Below are positions 3,538 to 16,083 of a stretch of DNA of 42,496 bases, piece after piece. Positions within the stretch are counted from its first letter, which is position 1; each line of letters begins with the position of its first letter. Source of the DNA: Candidatus Sumerlaeota bacterium (GTDB lineage Bacteria > UBP6 > UBA1177); NCBI GenBank assembly GCA_007132725.1, contig SLOD01000101.1, forward strand, positions 1 to 42,496, read 5' to 3'. The notes under the pieces were generated by a model that was given only the letters and a program-made list of their open reading frames with translations, ran no database searches and had not been told where the DNA came from. The position numbers and the translations under genes are program-made.

Positions 3538-3828
3538 TTGGATAAAAGAGTCTTCAAGATCAGAAATGAGGTTGCTTACAGAAAATCGAGTGACGGGAAC
3601 ATGACAATAGTCTCCCCTGTTACAGATAAAATAACAACCATCAACCTGACAGCAACTGAAATATGGGAAATGATAGACGGCCACAAAAATGTCTCTGAAA
3701 TTATTGAACAGTTTTACAGCACCCACTCAAAAGACAGTAACCTCCCCCCTAAAGACATGGTCGGGGAAGATGTGCTGGAAATTTTAAACAGTTTTTTGGA
3801 AAAACAGCTTGTTGAGCTTGTTAAATAA
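3538..3828 (+). CDS. PqqD family peptide-binding (RRE-type) protein
   Basis: 96 aa; ...KITTINLTATEIWEMIDGHKNVSEIIEQFY... matches the PqqD fold signature; TTG start, GGAGG 6 nt upstream. Confidence 0.85.
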   Translation: MDKRVFKIRNEVAYRKSSDGNMTIVSPVTDKITTINLTATEIWEMIDGHKNVSEIIEQFYSTHSKDSNLPPKDMVGEDVLEILNSFLEKQLVELVK

Positions 3829-9800: not shown

Positions 9801-11435
9801 GACCTCTATCAACCTGAAACCATTGATATTTCAGAAAACCTGACCGTAAATCAAAAAACAGGGGAAGTTTCATTGACATGGAGTGCCGTAAAAGGTAACG
9901 ATTACGCTTTCGGGCCAAACCCCGAAGCTGTTTATCAATACGATATCCGCTATCAGGACTACAACGAAGGATCCTGCACTCTTGCAACAGCTTTTACTGA
10001 AGCGAAGAAACCTCTTGAGACAATAGCAGGGGCAGTTCCGTTACCTGATGAAGAAGGAGAAATAATGTCACATGACTTCTTTGTCAACAGAATCAATAAC
10101 GGTGAAAGCGGTGAAGAATTCAAAGAAGCCGATATTCACAAAAATAGAAACAGATATTGCTTCGCAGTAAGAGCAGTAGATGCGGTATATGACAGCGATG
10201 GAAATGTTCTTGCTGTTAACAATGGAAAAGTATTACCCTATGATGCCGGAAAAGTAAGCATGGAATGGGGAATGATAATGGATGCGCGTTCAGGATTTCA
10301 TAATTTTATAATCAGAAACCTCGGAGATATTGACGGAGACGGTCTTGATGATTTTGTAATCGCAGATTCCTACAGAAGAAATGCTGACGAAGAAGATTAT
10401 GCCGGCAATATCCGCATATATTTTTCAGACCCCGAAGGAGGCATGAATTTTGAACTCAGCGGCGGGGATGATGAATCTCTCGGACAGGGTATCAGCAGCA
10501 AAGCTGATTTCAATGGAGATGGTTTTCTTGACTTTGCCTACACTAACGCTGCGGGAGATGTCTATATTCACTACGGAACATCTCTCGGTCTTAATATTGC
10601 TCATTCCTACAGCTTTATTTCAAAAGACGGTTCCATTCAATACGGCAGAAGTATGGCAACCGGTGATTTTAATGGGGACGGATGTGACGATATCGTAATT
10701 TCTGCTCCGACAGCGAGTGGCGGAGGAACATCAAGAGGAGAAGTTTACATCTATTTTGGGCGTGGAAAAGAATGTTTTTCCAATGATCCGATAGAGGGAG
10801 ATGAGCCTGATGTCATTTTCCAGGGAATGAATAACAATGACCGCCTTGGGAGAGCTGAAATACACTCAGTTGGAGATATAAATGGAAATGGAAAAACCGA
10901 CTTTGCCTTTTCAACATTAAACAGCGTATACATAGCCTATGGTGGGGATCCAGGCGGAACAGTTTCCGCTTATACCATTACAGGACTAAAATCCATGCCC
11001 GGCTACAGAATAGGCCACGGTGATTTTAATGGAGACGGTTACTCCGATCTTGTTATCGGTGATGAAAACAGAATACTGGTCTATTACGGAAGTTCCGAAG
11101 GAATATCAGACTCTCCTTCAATGATAATAGATGACATTTCGCCTATTAATTCAACCTATACCCCCGCCGTCCCTGATTTTGCAATGGCTGTTTCTCATAA
11201 AATGGTTGATATAAACAATGACGGGTTAAGTGATCTGATCATTGCTTCTGACAGAGGGCTTCTGATCTATAACACGATAAACGGTTCCTTGATGGACATG
11301 CCTTCTGTTTTTGATCCGTTCATTGATACCTCTTCAGCAAACCTTAAACTGCTGTTGCTTGATCATGGCATAGTCTACTGTAATAGTGCGACGAATAAAG
11401 GAGACTGTTATTTCTTGAACTATAATGGAGAATAG
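3864..11435 (+). CDS. Giant (2523 aa) lipoprotein with bacterial Ig-like repeats and C-terminal FG-GAP/VCBS repeats
   Basis: Lipobox (VLWSC), EGF-like Cys cluster, repeated FECKLD...C..Y.GL.EGTHTFTVKA.D.AGN...W.VD modules, then about six DFNGDGxxD repeats (aa about 2150 onward). Confidence 0.92.
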   Translation: MNHLSKSKWLFLSAMLIASVLWSCSSKETCSADIECKEGFYCGDDRKCTQFESDDYQIIFENLTDGMTVTTIDDVDRSTDDIKINIVVLLKETKDHLRENMDATLSVKSKTGKTTVLNGKFIKNRAVFKSVNLPEGEVTVESWVSRNPALKTKVEINVRKMGIEVFYLKGGEGGTATVLEGATIYDDDNYDIESDDGISIYLTGETFGMEKGDAVEIIIPELKETPVAESIVGEDGSLIFGPVEIPVWKNVRMSLVSGDYSKSISFSVESSKYCGFMLNISNGDILGIANDETPNLQGLQYNLKISEITGCGSGSRVYIYTGDDEEKEPELQKSFSIAGSSVEERVTFNPSTDPDDTKKITVLIEDEDLDVFGQRTVSGIIVDLGLPTGEITFPEAGDILTMADDIDSDTDGLQINFQGVANDTVTPPVSVVLKLQDNIIGTLDDVEGPFSVPYTFTQSAQSVVLDAEITDRAGNSFTLSQPFSVDIDSGLTFYSICGVTGSDVVNLMWLNSTHDEDPSTDELQCSVILKVSENSSADSVSLAIGKDEPVKKSVSADGEAFFDIELEDSSDGILLKAEAFIEDDPIDEVTLTVRVDTVPPVAGLTNNLLLNSGETTSSPDITFNFECSENPCTFNSQLNDETIEDFTTANSRVITGLSDGEHTISVRAKDAAGNISEETVFNWTVDTENPETTITKDPGAGTAASFALFEFESSKDPYRFHCKLEKNGNNFVPDDDSWEECNTGKRDYYGLPEGTYRFRVSAQDAAGNVDPSPAEHVWVVGSAAPVTTITNIEPSDTVTNQDQVEFEFEATVTSTFECKLEKSGTVIEDWTDCSSKTKSYSSLDDGSYLFQVRATAAYGVKENTPASYGWTIDTVPPFIRINSKPSISTPYDSGSFIFECVGEVYPCTFECELDGSPVNCSTGHYSFAGLEEGSHRFVIEATDAAGNKSIPIDTPPDHSFLNDYSWEINPLLLGVTITSKPDIHSPSNDAEFIFESNKTASFECKLNDGSYEPCSSPYSYSGLSEGTHTFTVKASFAEEIAFDSHTWTVDTLDPVITIDSGPADPTNQTGAVFNFSANETVSFECKLSTDADWSPCSSPKVYPAGTFGIEDTEQEYTFEVRGTDQAGNTGTTSYTWTVDLAFPEIQWISPVPGPDGNVVVGKSHDVFSADPDVYGINVVVRVSGSNSGQPINVTGFTTPPEYHIVYVDSSQPKNYTLTIGLQHGARVNNPLVISVEDDTGSSASIDQLVIVNTEMPTITWAYPGNNHKFVASSTAPQFTFNVWNAEPGSVVELIDSDTNNVVATELTVGGTTGLQEYVQINPALDDRCAPYKFHARFYDDLDGMWHYTNSVTDEALKTVISVTVNRNPAVIDAVVIGDPMDPAVTDTDRILNRAKNMNDDPDGGMQIDITVYISDPENPDDTNRTVKLFTGSMLLATLTSQEDEAVFEKVPLKEGDHTLRVEIADCSGNISSKTLEKITVDTIKPELTLSAPKGSSSNWRWLVFADDPELGTIDGDGYFTGIEMVVNSNEEIGPSVEVIHTVYDYSDNQTDQSDISSNAVAGASNVTIDLPPLEYGKHRFRVTVEDLAGNSSTIDETYEVNVIVPQIEFTNISEGQVFDTDENESVPGFQILLEMAVEDVVPQSSYVIKAIPVLSQGGDADASRYEKTWTGSATMDGPVSKYLTMGGGWWRLSATIKDDHGNESGSVHYYIKIENDAPSITVKKGYGHSIGAGPVIDGYSESDPAWMLPEDVDCSGNDCYTELEIWTDAPAGSDVYISINGGGEISETTTSHSGQSYADFSVTLDSSLDFNTLTVKIISTTTTENEETYYIKIDETLPGLTLINPVDCSAQEVCRRIDMINDPGTDYIELVKLGYGYDDDLIPGGALNFRPSGKIIFEVDGATAGTVKVESVTGDPVPGITNGEATILYDNIAEIYYADFSNMTVADTNPDGQTDYDLVFKVTESPSGAVSKYLVKLHLDLYQPETIDISENLTVNQKTGEVSLTWSAVKGNDYAFGPNPEAVYQYDIRYQDYNEGSCTLATAFTEAKKPLETIAGAVPLPDEEGEIMSHDFFVNRINNGESGEEFKEADIHKNRNRYCFAVRAVDAVYDSDGNVLAVNNGKVLPYDAGKVSMEWGMIMDARSGFHNFIIRNLGDIDGDGLDDFVIADSYRRNADEEDYAGNIRIYFSDPEGGMNFELSGGDDESLGQGISSKADFNGDGFLDFAYTNAAGDVYIHYGTSLGLNIAHSYSFISKDGSIQYGRSMATGDFNGDGCDDIVISAPTASGGGTSRGEVYIYFGRGKECFSNDPIEGDEPDVIFQGMNNNDRLGRAEIHSVGDINGNGKTDFAFSTLNSVYIAYGGDPGGTVSAYTITGLKSMPGYRIGHGDFNGDGYSDLVIGDENRILVYYGSSEGISDSPSMIIDDISPINSTYTPAVPDFAMAVSHKMVDINNDGLSDLIIASDRGLLIYNTINGSLMDMPSVFDPFIDTSSANLKLLLLDHGIVYCNSATNKGDCYFLNYNGE

Positions 11436-11437
11436 TG

Positions 11438-11557
11438 ATGGAGAAAAGTAAAGATTATTTGAAACCCGGGATAATAGAAGAAACCTCTATTGATAGAAAA
11501 ATGGTGTATGCCGAACCTTATGATCAAAGACAAGGCTGTACAACAATTGTAGAGTAA
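11438..11557 (+). CDS. 39-aa small peptide, candidate RiPP precursor
   Basis: MEKSKDYLKPGIIEETSIDRKMVYAEPYDQRQGCTTIVE; GGAG 7 nt before ATG; starts 2 nt after the giant lipoprotein stop; TAATG overlap with the next gene. Absent from the ORF track. Confidence 0.8.
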   Translation: MEKSKDYLKPGIIEETSIDRKMVYAEPYDQRQGCTTIVE

Positions 11558-12111
11558 TGGAAAAACATTTAAAGGTATCCAGGGAATCTACTCTCAGGAA
11601 CCTTTACTCATCAAAAAAAGGACTTATCGTTCATTGTTCAGCACTGTCTGATGATGGGACTGTCTTTGCTGTTGCAGGCATTGCAGATACAGGAAAGTCA
11701 ACTCTTGCAAAAAGACTTAACGGAATAATGACTTCTGTTAACGATGATATGAATATTTTTGAATTTTCCGGCCATAAAAAAATCAAAGTTTCCACCTATT
11801 TTACTCAGGCGGAAAACCAGGGTTATCATTACCTCATAAATGAAAATGTTACAGGTTTCCTTAAAGCAGTACTTTTCCCTGTTAAAGAGTATGAAAAAGA
11901 ATCATGCATTGAGCATGTTAAAGACAAAGGGTATATTTGGAAAAAACTTCTTACTTGCATTGCACCGCCAATAAAAGATGAAGACCATCTTTTTCCGAAC
12001 TATCTGGAGATGATAGACAAACTAACAGTGACTGTTGATTTTTTTCATATTTATCACAATCTCAAAGATCCGGCAGAAAATATAGTAAAACTTCTAAGAT
12101 CAATAAAATGA
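11557..12111 (+). CDS. HPr kinase-like (HprK-related) P-loop protein
   Basis: Walker A AGIADTGKSTLAKRL, followed by TSVNDDMNIF resembling the HprK DD motif; start overlaps stop of the 39-aa ORF. Confidence 0.75.
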   Translation: MEKHLKVSRESTLRNLYSSKKGLIVHCSALSDDGTVFAVAGIADTGKSTLAKRLNGIMTSVNDDMNIFEFSGHKKIKVSTYFTQAENQGYHYLINENVTGFLKAVLFPVKEYEKESCIEHVKDKGYIWKKLLTCIAPPIKDEDHLFPNYLEMIDKLTVTVDFFHIYHNLKDPAENIVKLLRSIK

Positions 12112-13064
12112 AGGCTCTCTCTCTTGAAATAACCAATACCTGCAATGAAAAATGCAGACACTGCTACCAACCGGAAAATAGTGGAAAACAATTTATTTCC
12201 GATCTTGAACTTCTTAATAAAATGTTTGCTGAACTTAGTGAATCTGGATTTATATTTCTTTCTCTTACAGGAGGGGAACCCCTGCTCCATCCGGAGTTTA
12301 AAGAAATTTGTCTGCTCGCTCAAAAAAACAGATATATTATATCTGTCAAAACAAATGGAGTGCTCATAAATAACGACCTGGCTCAATTCTTAAAAAAACT
12401 GAAGCCTTCCTCAGTTGAAGTATCCCTATATTCGGCCGACCCAGAAGAACATGACTTTATAACCTGTGTAAAAGGTAGTTTTAATGCATCTGTTGAAGGA
12501 ATAATGGCACTTAAAAAACACAATGTAAAAGTTTCAGTTATGACACCTGTTTTAAATGGAATAAAAAAATGGAAAGAACTCCTTCCAGTCATGAAGAACA
12601 TGGGCGTTCCATGGAGTTGCTCCCCAAATATCCGCTCTTCCTTTGATGAAAGGGATGAAGTTGAACAGTTCAGGGGTGACTCCAGTTATCACCTCGATTT
12701 TTTTGAATTTATTAACGGTCATGAAAATCAGAAAAAACTAAACCTTGAAAATAAATGTTTTAAAGAGTGCGGTGGCGGAATTTCAACGATATGTGTTGCC
12801 CCCGACTACTCTGTCCGTGCATGTCTATCATACCCCGGATCAGTTGGAATTTATACCGGAGGCAATGCAAAAGAACTTCTTTCAAAAGCACGGAAACAAC
12901 TTGAAGAAAGATTTGCAAAACTTGAGTGTCATCAATGTGGACTTGTAAAATATTGTGATCCATGTCCCGCCCACTTAAAGATCGTTGACGGAGTCGGGAA
13001 ATGCGATCCCGCAAAAAAAGAATTTGTCAAAGCATACCTCAAGTTTTTTGGAGAAAAGGCGTGA
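12108..13064 (+). CDS. Radical SAM protein with SPASM-like C-terminal Cys cluster
   Basis: CNEKCRHC = CxxxCxxC; SLTGGEPLLHPEF; C-terminal CFKECGGGISTICVAPDYSVRACLSYPG...CHQCGLVKYCDPCPAH. Confidence 0.93.
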   Translation: MKALSLEITNTCNEKCRHCYQPENSGKQFISDLELLNKMFAELSESGFIFLSLTGGEPLLHPEFKEICLLAQKNRYIISVKTNGVLINNDLAQFLKKLKPSSVEVSLYSADPEEHDFITCVKGSFNASVEGIMALKKHNVKVSVMTPVLNGIKKWKELLPVMKNMGVPWSCSPNIRSSFDERDEVEQFRGDSSYHLDFFEFINGHENQKKLNLENKCFKECGGGISTICVAPDYSVRACLSYPGSVGIYTGGNAKELLSKARKQLEERFAKLECHQCGLVKYCDPCPAHLKIVDGVGKCDPAKKEFVKAYLKFFGEKA

Positions 13065-13435
13065 TACATCTGCCTGATAAAGTACTGGACAGCTTGCTTG
13101 ATAATGATGATCTTGTTGTAGCATCATCAAGTATGGAACCGGTTCTAAAGCCGGGGGATAAAATTAAAGTTGACAGTATCGATCCCGACAAAATATCCAC
13201 AGGGCAAGTAATTGTTTTTAAAGATAAAAGCGGAAAGCTGATAGTTCACAGAGTTATTAAAAGATCAAACTTTGTTCTCACTACAGCAGGAGACAATATA
13301 CGGAAATTTGATGACCCTGTCCATATCCATGATGTTGTCGGTGTTGTGAAAGATCTTGAAAGAAAAATTTCCCTTTCAAAATATTCAAGGATTTTAAGAG
13401 CTGTCAAAAGAAGATTGCTAAGCATCTGGAATTAA
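13061..13435 (+). CDS. S26-family, SipW/ER-type signal peptidase-like protein
   Basis: GTG start at 13061 with GGAG upstream and 4-nt overlap with the radical SAM gene (the track starts the ORF at 13001). SSSMEPVLKPGD, GQVIVFKDKSGKLIVHRVI, TAGDN motifs (Ser/His type). Confidence 0.8.
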   Translation: MIHLPDKVLDSLLDNDDLVVASSSMEPVLKPGDKIKVDSIDPDKISTGQVIVFKDKSGKLIVHRVIKRSNFVLTTAGDNIRKFDDPVHIHDVVGVVKDLERKISLSKYSRILRAVKRRLLSIWN

Positions 13436-13536
13436 AAAGCAAAAAAACAAGGTTCGCTTTTTGCTAAAATAATTAATGGTTGGTAATGTATTTAATGATG
13501 CCACAGGTTTTAAACATAAACTTTTACCGGAGGGTA

Positions 13537-16083
13537 ATGATGAAAAAATTATTTGTTTTGCTGGCAGTTGCAATGATGTTCTCTACACTTTCTGCTTCTG
13601 CACAAAAGATCTACAGAAGAGACGGTTCTTTTTTTGAAGTAAAAAGGAATCATGGTGTGTTCGCAGAAAAAATAATGCCCGGGGTTTTAAAATCTCCGGA
13701 GTATTATTCGCTCAAGTGGGATTTTAGCGGCAAATTTGTTGTCATACACAAAGATGGAAGAGGTGATCTTCCTGTGTATCTTTATGATGCAAATACTATT
13801 GTTGCCGACACAAATCTTTTTTATGGCGGAGACAAAGATCCCGACTACATAGCTCTCAAGTACAACTTGAAGCTTGTAGAAATATTACCTGTCTACGGGC
13901 TTTACGAGTTTGAAACCTCATGGAACAGTGACAGCGTAAAAGTTGCTCAGTCAATAGTAGAAAACGGTGACGGTTTTGCTTTCCCCAACATCATCAGGAG
14001 AATGGAGCTTAGAACTAACCCTGTAAGATTTCCCATTGAAGATAAATATTACAAAGAAGGCTATCAGTGGAAACTCAAAAACACAGGTCAAGGAATAGCT
14101 CCTCAGGGAACTAAAATTGATACATTGAAAAACGCTGACATACGGTTTGAGCAGGCAATGGAGTTTATCTATAATGCCATTGAAAATAATGAGCTGCCCG
14201 ATTTTGCCATATCAAAAGTGGCAATTATGGACAGCGGGGTTGATATGGACCACCCTGACCTTAAAAACAAACTTGAGCCAGGTTGGAACATGGTTCATAA
14301 CAGAGAAGGCGGTGACCCCGGGGACATAGAAAGCGGAGGGATCATGGGGACATCAGGATACGCTCATGGAACCAACTGTGCCGGTGTTGCGGCGGCTGAA
14401 GGAAATGACATAGGAGTTGTAGGAGTGTGTCCATGGTGTGACATTTATCCGGTTACATACATGGAAGGCGGTTTCGGAGGAGCGGCAGATGAAAAACAGC
14501 TTCTGGTCGTATATCAGAAATATACAGAAGATCCCTCGATCGGTGCTATAAACTGCTCTTTCGGACCAATGGCAGGGTTTGGAATGGTGCCTATAAGTGC
14601 CGCTGAAATGGAAAGCCATGAACTTTTTATGAAAGAAGGAAGGGGCGGTCTTGGCGGAGTTATCATATATGCCAGCGGAAATGATGGGATAGATGCAAGC
14701 TATCACCGTCTTATGGGACACAAATTTCAGTTTGAAAGAAACGGTGAAGATGTTGAAAATAAAGTTGTTGTTGTCGGAGCAACTTCAGCATGGGATACAA
14801 AAGTGGGTTACTCTAATTACGGATACGATATTGATATTGTGGCACCATCACTGTCAAGCAGACCTTTACTTGGAATAACAACTACCTATCTTACAGGATA
14901 CGGTGATCTTGATGACGATTACACACTTCAGTTCAGTGGAACATCTTCTGCAGCTCCTGTAGTTACAGGTCTTTTCGGTGTAATTTTTTCCATCAATCCG
15001 GAACTTACCCTTGAAGAAGCTGTTGAAATAATGCGCCAGAGTTCTGATAAAATAAATCCCGAAACAGGCTTCTGGAGCTCAAACGGTCACAGTGTAAAGT
15101 TCGGATATGGAAGAGTTAATCTTCTTAAAGCAGCAAGACTTGCAGCGGGACTTGAGATGTGCGAAACCATATCGGACGAAACGAACAACAATATGGACGA
15201 CAACTGCGATGGATGGGTTGATGAAGGTTTTGCAAAAAATATTTCGTTCGTTACATCTCCATGTGAGTCTGACTCTGATTGTGTCAACGGTGATTTTTCT
15301 GAGGAAGATGTCGAATGTTTGAAAGGAGATTTCAGAATTTTCAGCTTTTCTGAAGGTTACTGTACCATCAGAAACAGAAATTTTGCATGCCCCGACGGAA
15401 CCCAGACATACTCCGGGTCTCAGAGTGACAGGAACTGCTTCCTTGAGTGCAACGATGAAAACCAGTGTCCTTCAGGGTTTACCTGTGATGACAGTGTTCT
15501 TGGAAAATGTTGGCCTATCTGTGAGTCAGACAGTGACTGCAGCGATGAAGCTTACTGTGACGGAGGTCTTTGCAGAAGAAATCCGTCCGAGCCGGGAGGA
15601 GAGTGTGATGACAGCACTGATTGTAAATACGGAGCTATGTGCATTACACAAATTCCCAACGGTTTTTGTCTTAAAATGTGCAGCAGCGATGCACAGTGTG
15701 GAGATGAAGGAGCAAAATGTGTCAAAGTTGACATGATGGGTCAGGGACAGTATGACATTTGTCTTCCAAGCTGTGAATCCAGTGATGACTGCAGAAGTTT
15801 CGGAACAATGGGATCTATGATGTGCCATGAAGTTTATAGCGGAAAAGAAGGAGTTTGCGGTATGCCTTGTCAAAATGATGCAGGCTGCTTTGATGATGAT
15901 GCCGTATGCAAAAATTCCAAGTGTGTTTTAGATGGCGATGACGAAGATACAGATACTGACAAAGAGGAATCTGACGATGAAACAGCCGACAAAGATGTCG
16001 GTTTTGAAGATGACGAGTTCCCTGATGATGAAGAGGAAAAAGCAGATAAAAAGAAATCGGGCTGCTCTGTTATTTTGATTTAA
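13537..16083 (+). CDS. Secreted S8 subtilisin-like serine protease with Cys-rich repeats and acidic C-terminal tail
   Basis: Asp (VAIMDSGVDMDHPDL), His (HGTNCAGVAAAE), Ser (FSGTSSAAPVVTG) motifs; signal peptide; repeats like CESDSDCSDEAYCDGGLC; ends ...DKKKSGCSVILI. Start set by GGAGG before ATGATG. Confidence 0.92.
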   Translation: MMKKLFVLLAVAMMFSTLSASAQKIYRRDGSFFEVKRNHGVFAEKIMPGVLKSPEYYSLKWDFSGKFVVIHKDGRGDLPVYLYDANTIVADTNLFYGGDKDPDYIALKYNLKLVEILPVYGLYEFETSWNSDSVKVAQSIVENGDGFAFPNIIRRMELRTNPVRFPIEDKYYKEGYQWKLKNTGQGIAPQGTKIDTLKNADIRFEQAMEFIYNAIENNELPDFAISKVAIMDSGVDMDHPDLKNKLEPGWNMVHNREGGDPGDIESGGIMGTSGYAHGTNCAGVAAAEGNDIGVVGVCPWCDIYPVTYMEGGFGGAADEKQLLVVYQKYTEDPSIGAINCSFGPMAGFGMVPISAAEMESHELFMKEGRGGLGGVIIYASGNDGIDASYHRLMGHKFQFERNGEDVENKVVVVGATSAWDTKVGYSNYGYDIDIVAPSLSSRPLLGITTTYLTGYGDLDDDYTLQFSGTSSAAPVVTGLFGVIFSINPELTLEEAVEIMRQSSDKINPETGFWSSNGHSVKFGYGRVNLLKAARLAAGLEMCETISDETNNNMDDNCDGWVDEGFAKNISFVTSPCESDSDCVNGDFSEEDVECLKGDFRIFSFSEGYCTIRNRNFACPDGTQTYSGSQSDRNCFLECNDENQCPSGFTCDDSVLGKCWPICESDSDCSDEAYCDGGLCRRNPSEPGGECDDSTDCKYGAMCITQIPNGFCLKMCSSDAQCGDEGAKCVKVDMMGQGQYDICLPSCESSDDCRSFGTMGSMMCHEVYSGKEGVCGMPCQNDAGCFDDDAVCKNSKCVLDGDDEDTDTDKEESDDETADKDVGFEDDEFPDDEEEKADKKKSGCSVILI

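Follow-up and report, generated by a model that had tools for sequence, protein, structure and literature searches.

A frame of 39 codons lies hidden between the gene for a giant lipoprotein and a kinase-like gene in a 42,496-nt contig of a Candidatus Sumerlaeota bacterium (SLOD01000101.1, analysed over its whole length and referred to here as the window). This locus raises the question of whether the frame is a gene and, if so, whether it encodes the precursor of a ribosomally synthesized and post-translationally modified peptide (RiPP), as an initial annotation of the DNA had proposed. The operon to which it belongs runs in the order pqqD, lipoprotein, peptide, HPr-kinase-fold kinase, radical SAM enzyme, and S26 peptidase (Table 1), with overlapping junctions at 11555 (TAATG), 12108 (ATGA), and 13061 (GTGA), the last formed by the GTG start of the S26-like gene and the stop of the radical SAM gene. 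No dedicated exporter was noticed beside these genes.

Table 1. Features of the peptide operon in the window
Feature	Position	Strand	Basis
PqqD-family stand-alone RiPP recognition element (RRE)	3538..3828	+	Pfam PF05402 E 9.7e-9; AF2 pLDDT 91.1; Foldseek
Giant lipoprotein, 2523 aa	3864..11435	+	Lipobox-like LWSC, Cys-rich N-terminus, bacterial Ig-like domains, C-terminal FG-GAP repeats
Shine-Dalgarno-like GGAG	11427..11430	+	Sequence; 7 nt ahead of the ATG of the 39-aa frame
Precursor peptide gene MEKSKDYLKPGIIEETSIDRKMVYAEPYDQRQGCTTIVE, 39 aa	11438..11557	+	Sequence, homologs, codon comparison, profile search
Leader motif Y-L-K-P-G-I-I-E-E, residues 7-15, candidate RRE recognition sequence	11456..11482	+	Y, P, E, E invariant in 18 homologs
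Variable core EPYDQRQGCTTIVE, beyond conserved V-Y-A	11513..11554	+	Variability in alignment; boundary and sites inferred
HPr-kinase-fold putative peptide kinase	11557..12111	+	H26, G41, GKST 46-49, ND 62-63; AF2 and Foldseek; invariant motif
Radical SAM enzyme, C-terminal SPASM-type cysteines	12108..13064	+	Pfam PF04055 E 1.9e-26; CX3CX2C; profile
Small S26/S24-like peptidase, S-M-E-P and V-H-R-V (Ser/His type)	13061..13435	+	TIGR02228, PF10502, sequence

The frame and its signals were found exactly as the initial annotation had described them, as were the positions of the PqqD, kinase, and radical SAM genes. The ATG occupies 11438-11440 and the stop codon TAA 11555-11557, where it overlaps the start of the kinase gene. 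The GGAG site lies within the final codons of the upstream gene, whose TAG is at 11433-11435, and similar sites precede most of the homologs of the precursor. Starting instead at a GTG at 11435 would lengthen the peptide by a single Met.

Judged from sequence comparison, the frame is a real, conserved coding gene. A search of related genomes with the 39 residues alone, as had been suggested at the outset, matched six further genomes of the family (E 4e-11 to 1e-3). A profile detected 18 copies, spread over 12 of 393 genomes and in each case at a locus with a homolog of the kinase; since the profile was built from 18 peptides collected by motif, its E-values are partly circular, a circularity of which the single-sequence matches and the codon analysis are free. 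Close homologs of the kinase were present in the same 12 genomes, no precursor was found in any of the remaining ones, and a scan of the DNA around all kinase homologs revealed a precursor peptide at every such locus. The first 24 residues do not vary among five species of genus g3, although their codons differ in each of the 10 pairs by 8 to 12 synonymous and 0 nonsynonymous changes. Differences between the A, B, and f3 peptides are likewise concentrated at third codon positions. Frameshifts and internal stops, which the initial annotation had named as signs against a gene, were absent among the homologs; the entry “1 TAA” in some profile rows reflects a profile extending beyond the natural stop. 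The homologs, the co-occurrence with the kinase, the synonymous leader codons, and the single-sequence matches rule out a chance frame. One weak match in a further genome (G010, E 0.57) was rejected as a chance hit, lying in a frame that resembles a HAD-type phosphatase and has no partner genes. No NCBIfam or Pfam model matched the peptides significantly.

The 18 homologs share a constant head. Tyr7, Pro10, Glu14, and Glu15 are invariant, position 9 is Lys or Arg, and positions 12 and 13 are hydrophobic, giving the near-invariant consensus Y-x-[KR]-P-x-[IVL]-[IVL]-E-E. The likeness of YLKPGI to the YxxPxL leader motif, pointed out earlier for this one peptide, extends to the whole family, whose leader reads YxKPx[IVL]; YxxP is a motif recognized by RREs (PMC12710340). 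Approximately 18 residues past the Tyr stands a conserved V-Y/H-A or L-F-x, at which we infer the leader to end, a spacing near that of lasso leaders, in which the Tyr is reported at −17 (PMC10368454). Beyond this point, the Cys-bearing tail is hypervariable and nearly unalignable between clades, and no tail residue is constant across the 18 homologs. Each core contains Cys plus Ser or Thr, as illustrated by EPYDQRQGCTTIVE (window), SNPDCDYTDPDAGC, SECVPTEDEPDKCD, and SEQYDPCKENPRNCGGSD (g3), a Ser or Thr being often expected by chance. Thr35 and Thr36 are the sole Ser/Thr residues past the leader in the window peptide, and with Cys34 they are candidates for modification.

The product of pqqD could recognize such a leader. 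Foldseek placed its predicted model closest to the lasso RRE TbiB1, the structure of which was solved with its leader (TM 0.74-0.84), followed by PqqD (5sxy) and the lasso B1 protein 6jx3. Together, the YxxPx[IL] leader, the predicted lasso-type RRE fold, and an HprK-type kinase like those in paeninodin and BsfA clusters could also speak for a lasso peptide whose cyclase gene lies at another site in the genome, but this explanation is close to refuted. In the own-family genomes searched, no full-length asparagine synthetase domain was found: matches to PF00733 cover only approximately 35-75 residues, and none lies in the operon. Matches to PF13471 (Transglut_core3), the domain of the B2 protease, cover only approximately 50-60 residues of unlinked frames of approximately 470 codons, none of them convincing. 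Moreover, with a core start at VYA or adjacent to it, the window core has no Asp or Glu at position 7-9. The view that this is not a classical lasso peptide, already expressed in the initial annotation, was borne out, and we rejected that assignment.

The kinase gave no match in Pfam and fell below the cutoffs of all curated HprK-related models. Its AF2 model (pLDDT 92.6) retrieved HPr kinase 1knx (E 2.3e-5), 3tqf, and PEP carboxykinases in Foldseek, and this fold search superseded an identity as an ABC transporter P-loop protein, to which only weak sequence matches in the PDB had pointed. His26, Gly46-Lys47-Ser48-Thr49, and Asn62-Asp63 are invariant among the homologs, the residue after Asp63 is Asp or Glu, and Gly41 is replaced by Ala in part of family f3. 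BsfK, an HprK-type kinase, transfers phosphate to a YxxPxL precursor, a reaction that its PqqD-like RRE accelerates; the BsfK residues H148, K169, S170, and D186 matter, and a G166A exchange is tolerated (PMC10368454). By order of motifs rather than direct alignment, these four residues correspond to His26, Lys47, Ser48, and Asp63, and the position of G166 is taken by Asp44. With BsfK as the precedent, the kinase points to phosphorylation of the precursor.

The start/stop overlap with the kinase gene and the constant pairing with the kinase would also fit an unmodified peptide, which would serve the kinase as a small partner, regulatory or structural, or act as a translational-coupling leader frame. 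We regard this as unlikely, however: conservation is seen at the level of amino acids and not of DNA, a hypervariable Cys tail behind an unchanging RRE motif marks a substrate, and no complete lipoprotein-type locus lacks the PqqD RRE. Against a coupling role in particular, the position of the peptide gene varies, as it follows the radical SAM gene at one locus (L018) and lies between the lipoprotein and S26 genes at three others (L025-L027).

The radical SAM enzyme carries the features of a SPASM-type maturase. In 8 homologs, the CX3CX2C cysteines C12, C16, and C19 are invariant, as are seven further cysteines in a SPASM-like order (C217, C239, C274, C277, C283, C286, and C299). Its profile matched SkfB best in the PDB; the Pfam SPASM model did not match the window protein, and nothing in NCBIfam exceeded its cutoff. 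The S26-like protein scored 61.3 bits against a cutoff of 51.85 for TIGR02228, which makes it archaeal/SipW-type by NCBIfam, and it also matched PF10502. No membrane segment is evident in its sequence, and it is the candidate leader peptidase. A set of PqqD, SPASM-type radical SAM enzyme, and peptide resembles the pathways to PQQ and mycofactocin, so that the peptide could be imagined as the scaffold of a protein-derived cofactor; this is very unlikely, since the precursors of cofactors hold their modified residues constant, in contrast to the tails described above, and one genus has no radical SAM enzyme.

Taken together, the conserved leader, the variable core, the linked PqqD with its lasso-RRE-like predicted fold, the HprK-fold kinase, and the SPASM-type radical SAM enzyme uphold the initial interpretation as a precursor. 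We consider it likely that the peptide is a lineage-specific, RiPP-like precursor: PqqD would recognize it, the kinase would add phosphate to Thr/Ser, and the radical SAM enzyme would tailor it further. In such a pathway, PqqD would bind Y7-x-x-P10-x-I12 and deliver the tail to the kinase, which, by analogy with BsfK, would phosphorylate Ser/Thr of the core, here Thr35 or Thr36. Where present, the radical SAM enzyme would modify the peptide by radical chemistry, plausibly at the Cys or close to it, as suggested by its SPASM-type cysteines and the Cys of the core, and the S26-like enzyme may cut the leader off near the conserved V-Y-A.

The bacteria that carry the pathway are uncultured, several come from the rumen, and most of their genome assemblies are in fragments. 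Their loci vary in gene content. Two families show the synteny pqqD-lipoprotein-peptide(-kinase-rSAM-S26); a third family of the phylum shows pqqD-lipoprotein-peptide. In genus g3, the loci L020 and L022-L024, and partly L021, consist of pqqD, lipoprotein, peptide, and kinase only. Neither a radical SAM nor an S26 gene is present there, and a search for radical SAM genes elsewhere in four g3 genomes of 93-99% completeness (G003, G009, G012, and G015) gave no match at E<=1e-8. The radical SAM and S26 steps are therefore not universal, and PqqD, lipoprotein, peptide, and kinase make up the minimal set. That kinase and RRE are constant even without the radical SAM enzyme argues for phosphorylation as the shared step. 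Where complete, the loci of family f3 (L025-L029) have the order lipoprotein-peptide1-S26-rSAM-peptide2-kinase, with pqqD upstream of the lipoprotein gene. In family f4, of the same phylum, a locus (G026, L104:5441-7671) contains pqqD, lipoprotein, and the peptide MKKKYIKPVLETEEILERVVLGCSLQEGACDPKAGTSTS, with convergent kinase and S24/S26-like genes; no radical SAM gene is found at this locus, where a 322-aa Cys-rich (CxxCxxxCC) protein takes its place. Two genomes (G001 and G002) have pqqD on a contig that ends within the expected lipoprotein gene and are uninformative on the locus.

A second module was observed in the genome of the window itself (contig C68, L018:5771-7436). A single-sequence search of this genome found another copy of the peptide gene, encoding MKTYERPQVIEELSIERKLVHANVRIVGNPSHPGCTYCPGTGSPVGS, directly after homologs of the kinase and radical SAM genes, without pqqD or lipoprotein. 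An equivalent module lies in tandem with the first in genome G004.

The link to the lipoprotein is the most unusual feature of the system. In related loci, a precursor gene is immediately preceded by a homolog of the lipoprotein gene (at the f4 locus, L104, judged by position), and we guess from this linkage that the product of the pathway probably acts together with the giant lipoprotein of the same operon. It is very improbable that PqqD, kinase, and radical SAM enzyme act mainly on the lipoprotein, with the peptide as an adaptor. In three families of the phylum, the lipoprotein gene separates pqqD from the peptide gene, a placement that would suit such an arrangement, but the lipoprotein, which bears a signal peptide, would be expected to be exported in an unfolded state, it is the peptide that carries the RRE motif, and the paralogous module at L018 combines kinase, radical SAM enzyme, and peptide without a lipoprotein.

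Returning to the precursor, the family is apparently undescribed so far, and the system appears to be a lipoprotein-linked variant of RRE-dependent RiPPs. A search of the open-access literature found no paper combining HPr kinase, PqqD, radical SAM, and a precursor peptide. More speculatively, and with a rather low probability, the system may constitute a distinct RiPP class with an RRE and an HprK-type kinase as minimal machinery and an optional radical SAM enzyme and protease, the product of which works with or is displayed on the lipoprotein and has a hypervariable core shaped by diversifying selection during contacts with other cells. Through the operon, a poorly characterized area of RiPP biosynthesis, in which HprK-type kinases and radical SAM enzymes share one RRE, gains a precursor family that gives each enzyme a defined substrate. 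It also offers a natural experiment, in which the same type of leader, kinase, and RRE occur with and without a radical SAM enzyme. Should the link with the lipoprotein prove functional, the result would be an unusual pairing of a modified peptide and a surface protein in uncultured bacteria.

Several known systems share parts of this machinery. The bsf cluster of Bradymonadales (BsfA/BsfB1/BsfK) and clusters with paeninodin-type kinases (PMC10368454) have in common with the window the YxxPx[IL] leader, the stand-alone PqqD RRE, and an HprK-type kinase with H...G...GKS...DD residues. The window operon differs in having neither cyclase C nor protease B2, in encoding a SPASM-type radical SAM enzyme, an S26-like peptidase, and the giant lipoprotein, and in cores that carry Cys, with no lasso ring acceptor in that of the window. 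The SynChlorMet (SCM) cassette comprises the same enzyme types, ScmC (kinase-like), ScmD (PqqD), and ScmE/ScmF (radical SAM), and SCM models were among the best weak NCBIfam matches for the kinase, PqqD, and radical SAM enzyme (18.4/125, 16.1/100, 85/400, and 90.4/400 bits against cutoff). As every score was far below its curated cutoff, membership was rejected; in addition, the window has one radical SAM enzyme instead of two, and the SCM model names mention no lipoprotein. The sactipeptide and ranthipeptide maturases SkfB, CteB, and StsB likewise combine radical SAM and SPASM-type cysteines with Cys-containing cores, and a comparable W/Y/LxxP motif has been reported as the target of the StsC RRE (PMC12710340). 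Compared with these, the RRE of the window is a separate protein, a kinase is present, the core has one or few Cys, and scores remain below the family cutoffs.

The closest parallels are uncurated. In at least 6 of the 9 loci inspected from other phyla or families, a relative of the kinase adjoins PqqD and/or radical SAM genes; YxKP peptides occur at L104, L109, and L110, and a related peptide at L105. In other phyla, PqqD-rSAM-peptide-HprK-S26 clusters with “GCK” cores were observed at L109:4096-7228 and L110:3709-6799. These clusters (and partly L105 and L108) share with the window the enzyme set and the YxKP peptides; they differ in their gene order (pqqD-rSAM-peptide-kinase-S26), in a core of the form A/GVL.GCK..., and in having no homologous lipoprotein. 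An apparent surface protein of 1177 aa is encoded just upstream of the L110 cluster. Against curated NCBIfam models, none of the L109 enzymes reached a cutoff, except for a generic signal peptidase model.

Further genes were observed around the operon and in related contigs. In the window, a nucleotidyltransferase gene of the NTP_transf_5 family (PF14907; 40871-41833, minus strand) is possibly of the BsfN type found in kinase-bearing lasso clusters; at 27 kb from the operon and near the contig end, it is probably unrelated. The operon is followed by a subtilase gene (13480-16083, plus strand) whose product terminates in ...EEKADKKKSGCSVILI; a Cys stands a few residues ahead of the last one, and this C-terminal end may be a truncated sorting signal. 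A different, PqqD-fused radical SAM/SPASM enzyme is encoded in genome G017 (contig C5, L080:9496-11662), with the peptide MPYQKPVFYAQTAPQGSYAATCSPKDRGPAGSARVNPERACNSTLQKCLNCERTK upstream. Finally, contig C112 of the window's own genome (L081:1899-3233) encodes another radical SAM/SPASM protein, with an N-terminal extension of approximately 120 residues, followed downstream by 113-aa and 469-aa secreted or lipoprotein-like genes.
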